Part shown: one piece after another, positions 41,091 to 46,951 of the stretch | How the letters are laid out: each line of letters opens with the position of its first letter | Position numbering within the stretch: position 1 is the stretch's first letter | DNA from: Pseudacidobacterium ailaaui | Lineage (GTDB): Bacteria; Acidobacteriota; Terriglobia; Terriglobales; Acidobacteriaceae | DNA: 64,000 nucleotides | Assembly: GCF_000688455.1 (NCBI RefSeq) | Contig: NZ_JIAL01000001.1 | Coordinates: 2,573,001-2,637,000 of the forward strand | Direction of reading: 5' to 3' | Position numbers and translations under genes: made by a program | The notes under the pieces: generated by a model | Database searches by the model: none | What the model was told of the DNA's origin: nothing | The model's input: the letters and a program-made list of their open reading frames with translations, nothing else

Positions 41091-42785
41091 ATGCCCGACT
41101 ATATTTATCTTCTGGAAAACCGCCTTTTACCTGCCCAGCAAAAAGCCATCCAACAAGTGCGCGACGCCGCCCGCGATGCGGGAATGACGGTTTTTCTCAC
41201 AGGTGGGGCCGTCCGCGATCTGACCACGGGAACCACTGTTTATGATCTGGATTTCACCGTGCAGGGAAATGCCCTAAAGCTGAAAAAGGCATTAGAAAAA
41301 GCTGGCGCGGTACTTTGGGGAGAGCACGAGCCGACCCGGACCCTGTTTTTCTGGTTTCCAGGCAGTGTAAGAGTAGAGGTCTCAAGCGCGCGGCGGGAAG
41401 AGTTTCCAAAGCCAGGCAAGCCTGTCTACCACTGGGCGCCGATTCTGGAAGATTTGCGCCGCCGGGATTTTACGGCGAATGCCATGGCGATTTCGCTCAA
41501 CGAAGGCTCCTATGGGCTATTGCTGGACCCCCTGAACGGAATTGCTGATATCGAGGCCAGACAATTACGATTGATCAGCCCTTACGGCTTTATCGAAGAT
41601 CCTTCGCGCCTGCTGCGTGCAGTGCGGCTGCACACCCGACTGGGATGGGCCCTGGAAGAGAGGACCCAGGCCCGTTATGAAAATGCCAAAAATGAAGACG
41701 TTATCGAATCCATTTCTGCATATCTGAAGGGATACGAACTGGAAGAGATAGGGCATGAGCAGGACGGACTGCGGGTGTTGAAGGCGCTGGAGGCCGAAGG
41801 CTGGATGAAGAAGACCTTCCCGGTCTGGACCAGTTCCAAAGCGGATGCTCATGGATTGGAGCATTTACTGGAAGTCTATTACCAGCTTTTGATGCAGGGG
41901 GTCCATCCGGACCTTTCTGCGGCCCAGATGGAGCTGCTGACGGCCAAAATGCAGCCCAAAGAGATTGCCTTATTGAAGCGGACCTTCCCCCGACACGGCT
42001 TCGTAGAGCAATGGAACCATCTGGAGGCAGAAGCCAAGAAATTTGCCAACCTTCTGACCAGTAAAGATGCAGCCACACCCTCTGCCACGTGGAAGCTGAT
42101 TACCTCCTATCAACCGGAGCCGGTTCTCTGGCTGGCTTATTCAGGCAAAGGTGCCGCCATCCAGAATAAATTCAAAAACTTCTTTACAGTTTGGCCGGAA
42201 TCCAGGCAAAAGATTCCGCTTGCCCTGATGCAGGAAATGCGGATCACTCCCGAGATTGAGCGCTACCAGGAACTGCTGCAGGAGCTCTTCTTCCATCTGA
42301 TTGATGGAAAGTTGCAGACGGAGGAGGAAATGCGCGCCTTCCTGGAACCCTATTCGCCACCGGCACCCCCTCCGCCTGTGAGCCTTCGCCGCTCTCGTCG
42401 AAAGGCCGCCGAGCCCAGGATCAAATCTGAAAAGTTTGAAGAGGGAGAGGAAGAGATTGAAGTGCCGAACCTTGAGGACCTCGACCTCGACATAGAAGAA
42501 GATGAAGAAGCCACGGAAGAAGAAGATGCGGAGGAGGAAGTGCAGGACGAGCCTGCCGTAAAGACGAAGGCCGCGGCTGCGCAGGAAAAGAAGGAAGCAA
42601 AGCACAAGCCTGTACCCGCAAAGAAAACATCGAGTAAAGCTGTCCCGGCGGCTGGTTCAAAAGCTGCGAAATCAAAAAGCTCGAAGAAAAGTAATGCCTC
42701 TATGGCAAGCAAGGCATCGAAGGTGAAGCCAGCCAAAAAGGCGACATCGAAGCCTGGAAAAAAGGCTGCGAAGAAGAAGCATTAG
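41091..42785 (+). CDS. CCA tRNA nucleotidyltransferase / poly(A) polymerase family, with long charged tail
   Basis: The nucleotidyltransferase head has FLTGGAVRDL and YDLDFTVQG (metal-binding DxD) within residues 30-65, RRDFTANAMAIS and the PFGIFEDPSRLLRAVR-type motif at about 160-185. It would add or repair the 3'-CCA of tRNAs or polyadenylate RNA. The body ends near residue 420. A 145-residue tail follows: Pro-rich, then strongly acidic (about 440-490), then Lys/Ala/Ser-rich and histone-H1-like to the end. The tail is not part of the family and may bind nucleic acid. Confidence 0.85.
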   Translation: MPDYIYLLENRLLPAQQKAIQQVRDAARDAGMTVFLTGGAVRDLTTGTTVYDLDFTVQGNALKLKKALEKAGAVLWGEHEPTRTLFFWFPGSVRVEVSSARREEFPKPGKPVYHWAPILEDLRRRDFTANAMAISLNEGSYGLLLDPLNGIADIEARQLRLISPYGFIEDPSRLLRAVRLHTRLGWALEERTQARYENAKNEDVIESISAYLKGYELEEIGHEQDGLRVLKALEAEGWMKKTFPVWTSSKADAHGLEHLLEVYYQLLMQGVHPDLSAAQMELLTAKMQPKEIALLKRTFPRHGFVEQWNHLEAEAKKFANLLTSKDAATPSATWKLITSYQPEPVLWLAYSGKGAAIQNKFKNFFTVWPESRQKIPLALMQEMRITPEIERYQELLQELFFHLIDGKLQTEEEMRAFLEPYSPPAPPPPVSLRRSRRKAAEPRIKSEKFEEGEEEIEVPNLEDLDLDIEEDEEATEEEDAEEEVQDEPAVKTKAAAAQEKKEAKHKPVPAKKTSSKAVPAAGSKAAKSKSSKKSNASMASKASKVKPAKKATSKPGKKAAKKKH

Positions 42786-43423
42786 AGATTACCGGCTGAG
42801 GTTTTTGATAACTCCACCGTGTCTTTAGCCAAACGCCTGGAAGGGCATTGTTCCAGGTCGCAAACCTGCCGTTTGGCGAGCTCATGCAGCAGTTGCTTGC
42901 GTGCCTCACCTGCGGGCATCGATCCAAGAACCTCCCGCCGCAGCTTTCCTAAAGAATCCAGCCACTGGCCAAGGTCTTGCGGTAGCTGTTCGTCGATCTC
43001 CTGGCGTAATTGCTGGGCCAAGGCAGGACTTTGGCCCGCCGTTGAGATGGCAATTTGCAGGCTGCCTCTGTTGACGATGGAGGGAAAGTAAAAATCACAG
43101 TTTGGAGGATCGTCCACAGCATTGCAAATGATGCCGGACCGCGTGGCTTCACGATAGACGCATGCGTTTACCTCAGACCGGTTCGTAGCCGTCACGACAA
43201 GGAACATCCCAGTGAGATCTGAGGGCACAAACTCACGACGATGCCACTGGAGGCGGCCTTGCTGGGCCAGTGCCGCAATCTCGGGTTTGGCCTCTGGGGC
43301 GACCACAGTGACTTCAGCTTCTGAGGCCAGCAAACCCTCAATCTTTGATTCCGCAACTTCGCCCGCACCCACGACCAGGCATTTTCTGCCTTTCATTTTC
43401 AGGAAAACAGGGAAGAGACCCAT
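42782..43423 (-). CDS. precorrin-2 dehydrogenase / siroheme ferrochelatase-type protein (CysG N-domain)
   Basis: The 213-residue protein corresponds to the N-terminal module of CysG (Met8-like): LFPVFLKMKGRKCLVVGAGEVAESKIEGLL starts the Rossmann fold, and VNACVYREATRSGIICNAVDDPPNCDFYFPS holds the active-site region with the conserved Asp. The C-terminal methyltransferase half of CysG is absent. It oxidises precorrin-2 and may insert iron, giving siroheme for the reductase encoded just upstream in the same direction, nine bases away. Confidence 0.9.
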   Translation of the reverse strand: MGLFPVFLKMKGRKCLVVGAGEVAESKIEGLLASEAEVTVVAPEAKPEIAALAQQGRLQWHRREFVPSDLTGMFLVVTATNRSEVNACVYREATRSGIICNAVDDPPNCDFYFPSIVNRGSLQIAISTAGQSPALAQQLRQEIDEQLPQDLGQWLDSLGKLRREVLGSMPAGEARKQLLHELAKRQVCDLEQCPSRRLAKDTVELSKTSAGNL

Positions 43424-43432
43424 TCCGTTATC

Positions 43433-45106
43433 TTACGCAATTTCTGCGGGGACTGGAGTTACAGTCCCTGAAAGTCGGTTGCGTATCTCCTCTACCGATT
43501 GCCGAGAGAAATAGGCGCGCAGATTGTCCTCGGGCCTGCGCTCGGCCAGGTAAGCGCGCAGAAGCCGTTCCAATGCCAAAGGCACTTCGCTTGCAGGGAC
43601 ACGATAATTGGTGGGTCGGGCTATGGCGGCATGTTGACCCACTGCTCCGCCAACATGAAAGACATAGGCATCGACCATCTTTCCCTCATGCTTGGCCTTC
43701 TTTCCCTCCAGCCCAATGTCGGCAATCCAATGCTGGCCGCATCCATTCGGGCATCCGGTTACGTGCAGCTTGATCTGCTCAGTGAACTCAGGAACGCGTT
43801 CTTCCAGTTCTTCTACCAGCCAGCGCAGAAAACCCTTCGTCTCAGTGATCGCGAGTTTGCAGAACTCTGTTCCTGTGCAGGCAATGCCTCCTCGCCAGAA
43901 TGCTGATCCCTCGACAAAAAGGCCGATCTTGCCCAGTTCCTCAGTAAGCTCGATGGCTTTCTCGGCAGGCACATTGATGAAGAGCAGGTTCTGCATGATG
44001 GTTGTACGCAGTTCGCCAGAACCATAACGATCAGCGAGGTCAGCAGCTGCCGCGAGCTGATCGCCGCTGATGCGTCCCCGCAGGACCGAAGCCCCCACGT
44101 AGGTCAGGCCTGGTTGTTTTTGCGCATGAATCCCAACATGGTCGCGAAGAATATCAGATGGCGGTACTTCTTCGATGCCAGGGTCGAGTTTGTATCCCAG
44201 GCGTGATTCCAGTTCCTCAAGGAAACGCTCCGCAGTCCATCCTTCACGGGTGAATAGGTACTTCAGGCGGGCACGGTCGCGGCTTTCCCGCAACACTTGT
44301 TGGTCCCGGAAAATCTCTGTCACTCGGCGGACCACATCCAGGGCCTGTTCCGGGCTGATCAACGCATCTAGTTTGACCGCAAGGTGTGGTTCATTGGAAA
44401 GCCCCCCGCCGACTCGCAGTGTATAGCCAACCTGGTCTCCTCGGCGGACAGCCGTGAGCGCCACGTCATTCAGTTCAGGGTAATTGCACCAGACCGGGCA
44501 TCCGGAGACTGAGATTTTGAACTTGCGCGGCAGATTATAAAACTCAGGGTTGGCAATCAGGGTGTGTGCGATTTCCAGAGCGAGCGGAGAAGCGTCGATG
44601 ATCTCGTCGTGGGCAATTCCGGCCAAAGGGCAGCCCGTTACATTGCGGACCACGTCCCCGCAGGCCCCTTTGGGAGAGAGACCAACAGCATGAAGAGCAT
44701 CCACAATCTCGGGCAAGGATTCAATCGTCAGCCAATGAAACTGGAAGTTCTGGCGAACTGTGATATCAGCAAAGTTGCGCGCATATTTTCGTGCAATGTC
44801 CGCAATCACGCGAAGCTGGTCCGAGCGCAGAATTCCATTGGGGATACCGACCCGCATCATGAAATATTCAGTTGCCAGCCCTTCTCCCCCCTTACCGCCC
44901 ACGGCACCGACCCCGTCACCCTGGGTATAAATGCCCCACCATTTGAAATATGCCGAAGCCCACTCCGGAAGGACGCTGGCGCGTCCCTGGCGCGCGAACT
45001 CGCGTATTTCTTGAAAGGCCTCCCAGGGATTCTTCTCACGTTTGAGACGTTCCATCTTCTGGGCCTTGGTTTCTTTTACCGTAGGGGTCTGGGCTATCTG
45101 GCTCAT
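43433..45106 (-). CDS. siroheme 4Fe-4S sulfite/nitrite reductase (NirA/SirA type), probably assimilatory sulfite reductase
   Basis: The 557-residue enzyme has two NiR/SiR half-domains and the cluster-siroheme ligands C-x5-C (Cys410, Cys416 in ACTGTEFCKLAITETKGF) and C-x3-C (Cys452, Cys456 in GCPNGCGQ). Reduces sulfite to sulfide or nitrite to ammonia with ferredoxin. The leader ORF with five cysteine codons upstream points to sulfite and cysteine supply (inference). The siroheme gene follows nine bases later. The ATG at 45106 has CAGGAA upstream. Sequence alone does not separate sulfite from nitrite. Confidence 0.85.
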   Translation of the reverse strand: MSQIAQTPTVKETKAQKMERLKREKNPWEAFQEIREFARQGRASVLPEWASAYFKWWGIYTQGDGVGAVGGKGGEGLATEYFMMRVGIPNGILRSDQLRVIADIARKYARNFADITVRQNFQFHWLTIESLPEIVDALHAVGLSPKGACGDVVRNVTGCPLAGIAHDEIIDASPLALEIAHTLIANPEFYNLPRKFKISVSGCPVWCNYPELNDVALTAVRRGDQVGYTLRVGGGLSNEPHLAVKLDALISPEQALDVVRRVTEIFRDQQVLRESRDRARLKYLFTREGWTAERFLEELESRLGYKLDPGIEEVPPSDILRDHVGIHAQKQPGLTYVGASVLRGRISGDQLAAAADLADRYGSGELRTTIMQNLLFINVPAEKAIELTEELGKIGLFVEGSAFWRGGIACTGTEFCKLAITETKGFLRWLVEELEERVPEFTEQIKLHVTGCPNGCGQHWIADIGLEGKKAKHEGKMVDAYVFHVGGAVGQHAAIARPTNYRVPASEVPLALERLLRAYLAERRPEDNLRAYFSRQSVEEIRNRLSGTVTPVPAEIA

Positions 45107-45133
45107 ATTGTTCCTGTGATGAAATTTGGAAAT

Positions 45134-45166
45134 AAAAAACCCGCGTCAGCGAAGTCTGCGCGGGCT
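45134..45166 (-). terminator. rho-independent terminator in the leader of the sulfite/nitrite reductase
   Basis: On the minus strand the stem CCCGCG ... CGCGGG (45159-45164 with 45140-45145), extended by CAG/CTG with one bulge, is followed directly by six U residues (45134-45139). It lies 35 bases after the stop of the Cys-rich leader ORF and 28 bases before the reductase ATG, the position of an attenuator. Confidence 0.75.
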
Positions 45167-45212
45167 ATTGTGGCGATTTAAACTCTGGAGGTAGCTGGAA
45201 TCATTCGCTCAC
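45145..45212 (-). promoter_or_regulatory. possible antiterminator pairing in the same leader
   Basis: GUGAGCGAA (45212-45204, overlapping the end of the leader ORF) can pair with UUCGCUGAC (45153-45145, the loop and 3' half of the terminator) with eight of nine bases matched. Pairing would prevent the terminator from forming. Confidence 0.45.
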
Positions 45213-45275
45213 AAGTCCGGCGCGTGCGCAACAACAGGCGCAACACATGACCGGAAAAGTGAAAGAATGAATCAT
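45201..45275 (-). CDS. cysteine-rich leader peptide (24 residues) of the sulfite/nitrite reductase gene
   Basis: ATG at 45275, stop TGA at 45203-45201. The product is MIHSFTFPVM-CCACCC-ARAGLVSE, five cysteines in six codons (45245-45228), using both TGT and TGC. It could also start at the internal ATG, which directly precedes the Cys codons. It lies eight to ten bases behind the predicted start of transcription, without a Shine-Dalgarno. Its likely role is not the peptide but ribosome stalling at Cys codons when Cys-tRNA is scarce. Confidence 0.7.
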   Translation of the reverse strand: MIHSFTFPVMCCACCCARAGLVSE

Positions 45276-45289
45276 AGAGATCTGTCTAT

Positions 45290-45318
45290 AGGGTAGAGGT
45301 CTGCGCCTGAGGCGTCAA
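45290..45318 (-). promoter_or_regulatory. promoter TTGACG-N17-TACCCT of the reductase leader
   Basis: On the minus strand TTGACG (45318-45313) and TACCCT (45295-45290) are separated by exactly 17 bases. A CGCCT-G-AGGCG inverted repeat (45304-45314) overlaps the -35 and spacer and could be an operator. The predicted start falls about eight bases before the leader ATG. Confidence 0.6.
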
Positions 45319-45356
45319 GCGCAAAATCCAAGGTTCCAGCAAGACCGGCTTGCTTT

Positions 45357-46094
45357 TCAAAGCCATTGCCCGGCCATATCGGCATGCGGCAAGCGTTGTG
45401 CATTGAGCCGCAATCTGGCGACTCTTTCCCAGCAGTCATTCGCGGCCAGTTTGCGATGAGAGTAAATCTTCGACCTGCCATCAAAACGGACCAACCCAGA
45501 TACTTGTTTTCGGGCCAGGGTCTCCATCAGGTGTGGAGCAAAATGAATCTCTCCGTAATAGCAAAGGTCTCGTTCTTCGGCACCAGCAGAGCCATAACGG
45601 ACAGCGGCGGCACTTACAGCAGATTCTGTTTCGATAGCAGGTTCGAACAGGAACGTATGGAAGGGAAGTAATGTGGTCCCATCGGTGCTGGTGCCCTCGG
45701 GAAAAAGAACAACGGGAACATTTGAGCGGAGCGCAAATTCTACTTCAATGGCGGCCTCGGTGGCACTAAGACGGTTCCCACGTTTGAGAAAAATGGTCCC
45801 TCCCAGACGGGCCAGCAGGCCAAATATCGGCCACGATGCTACCTCTCGTTTGGAAACAAAGACCCGAGGACCCAGCGCAGCATGCAATGGAATATCCAGA
45901 TAACCGAGATGGTTGGAAACAATCAGTCCCAGTTCTGGAACCGGCCCTTCGCTGCGTACCGTAATTCCAATGCGCCGAAGAAGCATAGAAGCGGTTTCAT
46001 GCAGCCAACAGGCGCGGTCATAAAGCGTGGGCCGAGGCCTTCTGAGCCGCAGTGCAGTATAGCGCAAGAGTGCTTGCAAAATCGTAAAAAACAA
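45357..46094 (-). CDS. 1-acyl-sn-glycerol-3-phosphate acyltransferase family; probable OlsA
   Basis: The 245-residue PlsC-type protein has an N-terminal membrane segment, the HX4D catalytic motif in SNHLGYLDI (His62, Asp67) and the acyl-acceptor FPEGTS block at about residue 130. Its neighbour, five bases upstream in the same direction, is an OlsB-like GNAT acyltransferase, so this is likely OlsA, which adds the second fatty acid to lyso-ornithine lipid. A role in ordinary phosphatidate synthesis cannot be excluded. Confidence 0.8.
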   Translation of the reverse strand: MFFTILQALLRYTALRLRRPRPTLYDRACWLHETASMLLRRIGITVRSEGPVPELGLIVSNHLGYLDIPLHAALGPRVFVSKREVASWPIFGLLARLGGTIFLKRGNRLSATEAAIEVEFALRSNVPVVLFPEGTSTDGTTLLPFHTFLFEPAIETESAVSAAAVRYGSAGAEERDLCYYGEIHFAPHLMETLARKQVSGLVRFDGRSKIYSHRKLAANDCWERVARLRLNAQRLPHADMAGQWL

Positions 46095-46099
46095 TAGGG

Positions 46100-46951
46100 C
46101 TAAGCGCAGGATGATGCGGCCGTAAGCGGCTGCTGTTCTGTGTCTGGTAGAAATCGTTCCCTCGCTGCCGGCGTCAAGTGTTGGAGATCAAGCAGGGTAA
46201 GAAAGTCAATGGTTCCGAAATCGCGGTCCCATGCCGGTTCTCCGCAAATACGCGCCCCAATTCCAATATAAGTCCTTAGGAGTCTTGGGATACGGGGAGC
46301 GGCATTCATCGAAAATCTTTGCGGTGGTAACCGGAAGGCTTGGGTAGGTGTAGTGAGGAATTCTGGTGAAGCAAGGTAAGGCTGGAGTTGTTCATACACC
46401 GCCCATCCTTCAGATGGATCCTGAGAATTTAACGAAGAACAACCAATGAGATAGCGTAGGCCCCGAACCTTGCAATACTGTGCGATTCCTCTCCACAGCA
46501 GATTCAAGACCTCACTGGACCGGTGCTCGCGGTCAATAGACGCGCGTCCGAGTTCGAGAAGCTCGCTGCGGACACCCTCATAGGGGCTGAAATCAAATTC
46601 CCGTGCGCTGTAGTATCCCAGCCTTTGCAGAGCTGTCATCCCGCACTGCATCCGATAGGTGCCTACAATTTCATGATGACTTTGGTCTTCGACGATAAGA
46701 TGGTCGCAAACGTAATCAAACTGGTCCATATCGAGGCCGGTATGATATGAGGACGAAAGTCCCTCCCCCAGCTCCAGGTTAAAGACCCTGAACCTGAGTC
46801 GGCAGGCGGAGATGCGATCCTGCTCTGAAACGGCTAGCCTCATCTGGTATTTTCCAGTGGCAGCAAAGACGCCGGGTTGGAGATCTGGCGGCAACTCGCC
46901 AAAATGCCCCGGCGCGACTGTTGGTATGGCGGGACGAAATAATGTAGCCAC
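46100..46951 (-). CDS. ornithine-acyl-ACP acyltransferase-like protein (OlsB family GNAT)
   Basis: The 283 residues contain the hemolysin/OlsB-type GNAT pattern: AVSEQDRISACRLRFRVFNLELG, DYVCDHLIVEDQSHHEIVGTYRM, and LELGRASIDREHRSSEVLNLLWRGIAQYC. OlsB transfers a 3-hydroxyacyl group to ornithine, the first step of the phosphate-free ornithine lipids. GTG start. It is followed five bases later by the PlsC-like gene. Specificity for ornithine is inferred from this pairing. Confidence 0.8.
   Translation of the reverse strand: MATLFRPAIPTVAPGHFGELPPDLQPGVFAATGKYQMRLAVSEQDRISACRLRFRVFNLELGEGLSSSYHTGLDMDQFDYVCDHLIVEDQSHHEIVGTYRMQCGMTALQRLGYYSAREFDFSPYEGVRSELLELGRASIDREHRSSEVLNLLWRGIAQYCKVRGLRYLIGCSSLNSQDPSEGWAVYEQLQPYLASPEFLTTPTQAFRLPPQRFSMNAAPRIPRLLRTYIGIGARICGEPAWDRDFGTIDFLTLLDLQHLTPAARERFLPDTEQQPLTAASSCA

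Follow-up and report, generated by a model that had tools for sequence, protein, structure and literature searches.

Predicted cysteine-responsive transcription attenuation by short Cys-rich leaders upstream of siroheme reductase genes in Acidobacteriaceae

A gene for a siroheme-dependent reductase in Pseudacidobacterium ailaaui is preceded by a promoter, a very short open reading frame (ORF) with clustered cysteine codons, and an intrinsic terminator, an arrangement that raises the question of whether the gene is controlled by the supply of cysteine, and by what means. We examined this locus within a window of 64,000 nucleotides, the whole stretch of DNA analyzed, from a genome that forms one contig of 3,686,523 bases, and compared it with related loci. 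We predict that the leader is a cysteine-responsive, ribosome-mediated transcription attenuator, a reading to which we assign a probability of roughly 88%.

All parts of the locus lie on the minus strand. A predicted −35 box, TTGACG (45313–45318), and a predicted −10 box, TACCCT (45290–45295), are separated by a 17-base spacer and place the transcription start near 45283, which would give a 5′ UTR of about 8 nt, where for most relatives none is predicted. The leader ORF, MIHSFTFPVMCCACCCARAGLVSE, encodes 24 residues followed by a stop codon (45201–45275) and has Cys at codons 11, 12, 14, 15, and 16, within a putative regulatory block reading TGT TGC GCC TGT TGT TGC (45228–45245). The intrinsic terminator (45134–45166) has a stem of 45166–45156 with 45149–45138, followed by a T6 U tract. 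A preliminary description of this DNA had reported the promoter with its 17-base spacing, the 24-residue ORF with its CCACCC motif, and the terminator with six U, and direct reading of the strand bore out all three. A consensus promoter scan, which required at least 4/6 matches per hexamer and at least 9/12 in all, did not list the window promoter because TACCCT agrees with the consensus at only 3/6 positions. Downstream of the terminator lies a nirA-family siroheme reductase gene of 557 codons (43433–45106), and the next gene on the same strand, which adjoins nirA in relatives too, encodes a siroheme synthase N-terminal-type protein (met8 / cysG N-terminal; 42782–43423; TIGR01470 above cut-off). 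Upstream of the leader are two acyltransferase-like genes (45357–46951, minus strand), with matches to ornithine-lipid enzymes below cut-off.

The leader RNA of the window folded at −52.1 kcal/mol, better than 200 of 200 dinucleotide shuffles (z −3.77). When a ribosome was placed at the first or third Cys codon, with an assumed footprint of about 13 nt past the A-site codon, the 3′ end of the leader ORF (45223–45205) paired with 45176–45158, a segment that includes most of the terminator 5′ arm, and the nascent RNA reached −22.8 and −21.7 kcal/mol, respectively. Moving the ribosome to the last Cys codon abolished uptake of the terminator arm, and moving it to the stop codon precluded this antiterminator. 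The preliminary description had proposed a different antiterminator, 45212–45204 with 45153–45145, in which the partner was the terminator loop; this pairing exists (8/9 bases, −9.6 kcal/mol) but is not the best available, and we replaced it with the 16-bp pairing of 45223–45205 with 45176–45158 (−20.1 kcal/mol). In the complete RNA with a stalled ribosome, equilibrium favored the terminator (−32.0 kcal/mol), so the switch must act kinetically, during transcription, as known attenuators do. The minimum energy of the stalled RNA was equalled or bettered by 4 of 30 shuffles. In the absence of a ribosome, the minimum-energy fold paired 45273–45238 with 45229–45198, which we regard as a possible protector hairpin (45198–45273).

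From these parts we infer the following course of events. Transcription would begin at the leader start codon or shortly before it, and a ribosome would therefore initiate immediately on an mRNA with almost no 5′ UTR. With ample Cys-tRNA, the ribosome would run to the stop codon and cover the end of the ORF, the antiterminator would be blocked, and the terminator hairpin (45166–45138) would end transcription. If Cys-tRNA were short, the ribosome would wait at the UGU/UGC codons 11–14, the antiterminator would form and occupy most of the terminator 5′ arm, and RNA polymerase would read on into the reductase gene and the siroheme gene. Without any translation, the protector pairing may leave the terminator free to form.

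If the leader has such a function, its ORF and terminator should recur together at related loci. We took the best 80 of 180 stretches encoding a nirA relative, those with the nearest nirA being labelled Acidobacteriaceae or Acidobacterium, and scanned the upstream DNA for a terminator and for an ORF with a start codon and at least three Cys within seven residues. Three loci with less than 300 nt upstream (L050, L057, and L072) were dropped, and of the 77 with at least 300 nt, 70 had a Cys ORF, 74 had a terminator, and 69 had both in this order. In 770 dinucleotide shuffles the corresponding values were 8.4, 13.9, and 0.26% (2/770), and in 679 random segments of the same loci they were 4.6%, 10.3%, and 0/679. 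The preliminary description, which first put forward Cys leader attenuation, would have been refuted by orthologous loci lacking a conserved Cys-rich ORF and terminator; the leader withstood this check, and that reading is largely supported. Among the eight exceptions (L013, L025, L030, L041, L046, L049, L075, and L081), L013, L030, L041, and L049 still encode two adjacent Cys; in L025 and L046 nirA lies directly downstream of cysD, cysN, and cysH; L075 has the ORF, with no terminator found; and the leader frame of L081 is broken.

A second set drawn from the phylum, which overlaps the first (the L121 and L069 leaders, for example, are identical), had a Cys-rich short ORF in all nine family members besides the genome of the window itself, with proteins 63 to 71% identical. 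Outside the family, at nirA-like loci with at most 43% identity (L130–L140, excluding L137, which had no upstream stretch), nine of the ten testable loci had no Cys leader. The tenth, L136, comes from another acidobacterial family (genome G083) and encodes a protein 39% identical to that of the window; about 100 to 200 nt before its nirA it carries an unlike Cys leader, MYDFRTLRCCCSCPC..., with a strong terminator, and the leader is therefore general in Acidobacteriaceae without being strictly confined to this family. Overall, the leader peptides fall into unlike sequence groups that have the Cys run in common, the largest of which, the “core” group, comprises 43 leaders of the form CCRCC...LRAHR.

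The predicted switch was also seen when masked-ribosome folding was extended to 69 leaders, comprising the window and 68 of the loci with ORF and terminator. The mean probability that the terminator arm was taken up was 0.72 with a stalled ribosome, 0.33 once the ribosome had reached the stop codon, and 0.58 in its absence (0.36 for the window). Between stalling and stop, uptake shifted as expected, by more than 0.2, in 55/69 leaders and the opposite way in 2, with a change of at most 0.2 in the other 12. Shuffling the stretch upstream of the arm lowered stalled uptake to 0.54, and the real sequence exceeded its shuffle mean in 65/69 leaders. Stalling gained more than 0.2 over the ribosome-free state in only 21/69 leaders, which, together with the uptake of 0.58 without a ribosome, argues only weakly for the protector.

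Covariation was assessed in an alignment of the 43 core relatives (A1), in which the antiterminator joins the stop-codon region to the stretch upstream of the terminator. RNAalifold returned the terminator alone from this alignment, and the antiterminator was tested through hand-named pairs and by swapping strands between sequences. A leader's own two strands paired at −8.02 kcal/mol, compared with −6.78 kcal/mol after swapping, and none of 5000 permutations did as well; the terminator showed an effect in the same test, and two control pairings showed none. The position of the antiterminator bulge shifts between sequences. Counts in fixed columns agreed with the swap test and were weaker: 81.6% of cells were paired and 9 cells had changed on both sides, values each reached by 5/500 shuffles, the count of pairs changed on both sides was reached by 284/500, and with the columns slid by one, 64 to 70% of cells still paired. 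The protector was paired in 87.6% of cells in the core set, where we detected no covariation for it or for pairing of the ORF end with the terminator arm.

The choice of Cys codon bears on what is being sensed. Leader Cys codons are mostly UGU, the rare synonym, with 215 TGT to 78 TGC in nirA leaders and 66 to 734 inside nirA genes, a UGU share about nine times higher in the leaders. The excess was present in nirA leaders outside the core group (90 to 47) and in cysD leaders (66 to 21, compared with 6 to 99 in cysD genes). T-ending forms stood at 101 to 231 among the other in-frame NNY codons of the leaders, and TGT to TGC at 23 to 68 out of frame and at 186 to 392 in the remaining upstream region; these controls lack the excess, which is thus a feature of in-frame Cys codons alone. 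Because the leaders are related to each other, we claim no significance from these counts.

Codon choice also speaks to the possibility that the leader acts as an RNA structure, in the manner of a riboswitch, with the Cys codons being incidental. Among the 33 core leaders whose ORF encodes 17 residues, 32 have TGT as the first Cys codon and 31 as the second, and variation is not gathered at third codon positions, as would be expected if the nucleotides themselves were conserved; we take this near invariance as a sign that RNA-level selection is mixed in. Against an RNA sensor, the Cys run is all that the unlike leaders of nirA and cysD have in common, and the UGU bias disappears out of frame. 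In addition, the group to which the window belongs, 17 CC(A/G)CC leaders before nirA or cysD, shows synonymous exchange: the middle codon is GCA in 7, GCT in 4, GCG in 3, and GCC, GGG, and GGA in 1 each, and the sixth is TGC in 8, TGT in 6, and another codon in 3, under a selection pattern that imposed Cys and Ala/Gly codons and left their third bases free. Finally, Rfam, including its T-box and S-box models, gave no gathering-level match in the window at 44900–45500 or at the leaders of 15 relatives. Taken together, these observations make an RNA sensor very improbable. The sole gathering-level match in the loci of those 15 relatives was a cobalamin riboswitch at a nirA locus (L044:1042–1256, minus strand).

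A Cys-rich nascent peptide could alternatively respond to metals or redox state and itself bring the ribosome to a halt, with no part for Cys-tRNA. CC-x-CC motifs could bind metals, and other bacteria have metal-responsive Cys-containing upstream ORFs (uORFs) in front of TonB-dependent receptors. Here, however, the downstream genes belong to sulfate and sulfite assimilation, the peptides have no strict motif in common, and a preference for the rare codon UGU acts on decoding and not on the peptide. We therefore give the metal or redox explanation as little credence as the RNA sensor, and favor waiting of the ribosome for Cys-tRNA.

When the 43 core leaders were anchored on their ATG, the −35 element TTG emerged at positions −35 to −33 and the −10 element TAtnAT at −12 to −7, the geometry also seen in the window promoter, and no Shine-Dalgarno signal was visible. 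The start codon lay 5–9 nt after the best −10 box in 62/69 leaders (26/28 outside the core group), compared with a mean of 30.4 and a maximum of 40 when promoter offsets were swapped between loci in 2000 draws. These predicted transcription starts would make the majority of the leader ORFs leaderless. The leader of the window is not among the 62, its start codon lying 14 nt after the −10 box, and represents a milder case; the L136 leader, with 24 nt, is not leaderless. For comparison, the available part of one survey gives an average of 13.3% predicted leaderless genes in three acidobacterial genomes (PMC3160421).

We then considered whether the enzyme reduces sulfite or nitrite. The window protein has NIR_SIR domains, and its best match of solved structure was M. 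tuberculosis NirA/SirA (1zj8; 298.9 bits), with LPRKFK in the window and LPRKYK in 1zj8. Lysine as opposed to asparagine at the second active-site Lys of this motif (RKFK vs. RKWN/RKFN) separates sulfite from nitrite reductases, and Lys-x-Lys occurred in 80/80 relatives, the best 80 of 180 (LPRKFK in 78, LPRKYK in 1, and LPRKLK in 1). The Cys of the GDCPR stretch of 1zj8 is Val in the window protein, and since we take that Cys to form part of a Tyr-Cys crosslink in 1zj8, no such crosslink is expected here.

A nitrite reductase, with the leader serving another role, would fit the fact that the best-scoring family models were NirA family protein and ferredoxin-nitrite reductase, with all 11 matches below cut-off. 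The same genome, however, encodes a second siroheme reductase whose motif is LPRKFN. It has its best matches among nitrite reductases and scores above the NirA family cut-off, and our scan found no Cys-rich uORF before its gene. This paralogue sits in a cluster resembling one for nitrate assimilation (L089:308–10425, within G000:C1:3612000–3626000), with a nitrate-reductase-like molybdoprotein, a formate/nitrite transporter, and a CysJ-like flavoprotein; the last of these adjoins the paralogue and not the window gene, a point in favor of the nitrite reading. In relatives, nirA follows cysD, cysN, and cysH in L025 and L046 and shares a strand with cysD and cysN in L222. We consider a nitrite reductase unlikely, by a little less than the two explanations above, and conclude that the window enzyme is probably a ferredoxin-dependent sulfite reductase of the SirA type. 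Sulfite had been named as the likely substrate in the preliminary description, and the active-site motif, the position of nirA behind cysDNH in L025 and L046, and the nitrite-reductase-like paralogue all support that choice.

The preliminary description placed the attenuator at nirA, where we also find it, but nirA appears to be one member of a sulfur regulon and not its sole target. The cysDNH operon of the same genome has its own Cys leader, MAFMFCTLACRMDCRCC..., with a terminator whose arm was taken up in folding once a ribosome was placed on the leader's Cys codons. Across family genomes, 15/23 cysD loci had a Cys-rich uORF, the other 8 being counted as misses even though some look operon-internal. 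A covariance model built from the core leaders before nirA (R1), trained without the window, recovered it with E 1.7e-4 in a search of 64 kb and gave 58 matches in 43 of 249 genomes of the order; at its threshold the genome of the window was not found. Of the 56 matches examined, 39 lay before nirA, 7 before cysD, 2 before cysH, and 4 before a receptor sharing 60 to 62% identity with one encoded in the genome of the window. One each lay before a Cons_hypoth698 (YeiH-like) transporter (L213:1658–2824, minus strand) and a Porin_O_P protein (L214:250–1560, plus strand), possibly genes for sulfate transport, and 2 had no leader or known gene.

The receptor gene in the genome of the window (L084:8264–11446; Pfam OMP_b-brl_4 and CarboxypepD_reg), whose product we take to be TonB-linked, is divergent from cysDNH. 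Before it lie tandem Cys-rich uORFs, MHRTRNNLSCQCCASNFVPSPGCRY and MLHPLIHPHLLLIDCHIACC (L084:7960–8320), the start codon of the first lying 7 nt downstream of a −10 box, and two Cys uORFs were found again at the orthologues L242–L244, L247, L250, and L251. Among 18 receptor loci of at least 50% identity, excluding the partial matches L257–L259, 10 had Cys uORFs, 7 of these had two, and 8 had a Cys run adjacent to the stop codon. Only 1 of 9 paralogues of at most 38% identity had a Cys uORF, also with a stop-adjacent run, and random segments had any Cys uORF in 80/917 cases and a stop-adjacent run in 5/917.

Several cysD and receptor leaders in relatives have their Cys run at the stop codon, and neither the scan nor inspection by eye found a terminator at them. 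This would be expected if the uORF worked mainly through translational coupling or Rho, as has been proposed for mycobacteria, without recourse to an intrinsic terminator. The window and 74/77 nirA loci do have such a terminator, however, and covariation is seen in the core group for the antiterminator that captures the terminator arm; we judge coupling or Rho to have the smallest chance of the explanations weighed here. For the probable sulfite reductase gene we retain transcription attenuation.

The presence of Cys leaders before cysDNH, cysH, and an outer-membrane receptor in addition to nirA looks like a regulon, and we tentatively propose, at somewhat less than even odds, that Acidobacteriaceae possess a dispersed cysteine-attenuation regulon of mostly leaderless, UGU-rich short ORFs in two classes. 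Class 1, with CC-x-CC, an antiterminator, and an intrinsic terminator, would cover sulfite reductase, cysDNH, cysH, and, in single relatives, the Cons_hypoth698 transporter and the porin. Class 2, with a Cys run right before the stop codon and no terminator found, would cover part of the cysD genes. It would also cover a single orthologous group of outer-membrane receptors of the CarboxypepD_reg/beta-barrel type, where a further Cys-rich uORF lies upstream of it.

Wider searches set bounds on this proposal. The TGYTGYNNNTGYTGY pattern occurs at 58 places in the genome besides the window leader; of 20 inspected, 15 were in short frames, none of them followed by a terminator, and 5 were in long or open frames. 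The pattern CCCR-stop was found at 22 places in 16/60 genomes, compared with 12 for a reversed control, and is therefore weak as a genome-wide signal. Near position 1500, L276 and L285 have uORFs ending CCCCCPSCCCR and CCCCR, respectively, before a gene that by eye is ThiF/MoeB-like (L276) and one of no assigned kind (L285), which are possible further members of the Cys regulon. No Cys short ORF was found upstream of two of the seven cysKM matches (L156 and L157), and short Cys-containing frames were present at two of the six weak cysE matches (L150 and L151). CysE had no match above cut-off in the genome of the window, and CysD had none in 39/60 family genomes; cysteine and sulfate-activation routes may differ within the family.

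The order of leader peptide, regulatory codons, antiterminator, and terminator, with a possible protector, is that of trp- and his-type attenuators, from which this leader differs in that Cys would be sensed, that initiation would be nearly leaderless, and that it is found in Acidobacteriaceae. Work by Canestrari from 2020, to go by its title, reportedly concerns cysteine-responsive polycysteine leaderless uORFs in mycobacteria. Such uORFs were described at cysA2 and other loci by Shell (2015; PMC4633059), where, in the text available, a cysteine response was suggested that would be the first cysteine-directed attenuation in bacteria, and a 2026 paper, in its accessible portion, calls the M. 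smegmatis case translation attenuation (PMC13236596). The mycobacterial uORFs are leaderless short ORFs with clustered Cys codons before sulfur genes; the leaders reported here resemble them in the clustered codons and the kind of gene downstream, and most of them also in a predicted leaderless start. The acidobacterial leaders differ in having an intrinsic terminator together with an antiterminator that covaries. They also belong to another phylum and encode different peptides, and the two systems are therefore probably convergent. Cys leader peptides were predicted earlier in Mycobacterium, Propionibacterium, and Bifidobacterium without obvious terminators, and in Mycobacterium without a conserved terminator hairpin, according to the available part of Seliverstov (2005; PMC1262725). 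The leaders before Bifidobacterium cbs and the Propionibacterium cys operon resemble our second uORF class in having Cys runs near the stop codon, and differ in their genes and in that the same part of that paper describes no terminator for them (PMC1262725).

For Acidobacteria, the available part of one survey of predicted attenuators assigns functions to almost none (PMC2965389), and another paper places leader genes generally close to structural genes, the word cysteine being absent from the accessible text (PMC4833913). We found no report of Cys attenuators in Acidobacteria in the open-licence literature; the broad attenuation survey of Lopatovskaya (2010) could hold such a prediction. New here are the position of leader start codons at the predicted transcription start and the use of mostly rare UGU for leader Cys codons.

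If our reading is true, Acidobacteria would attenuate transcription in response to Cys-tRNA through a full terminator/antiterminator switch, a mechanism convergent with the mycobacterial leaderless polycysteine uORFs, and leaderless initiation may then be a general solution for attenuators. Through the UGU excess in the leaders, it could be tested directly whether sensitivity is tuned by wobble decoding. The regulon would help to separate sulfite from nitrite reductases where family names fail, and it would mark one group of outer-membrane receptors as sulfur-related; should both classes of the proposed regulon hold, the receptor would be a sulfur-source importer under a double cysteine lock.
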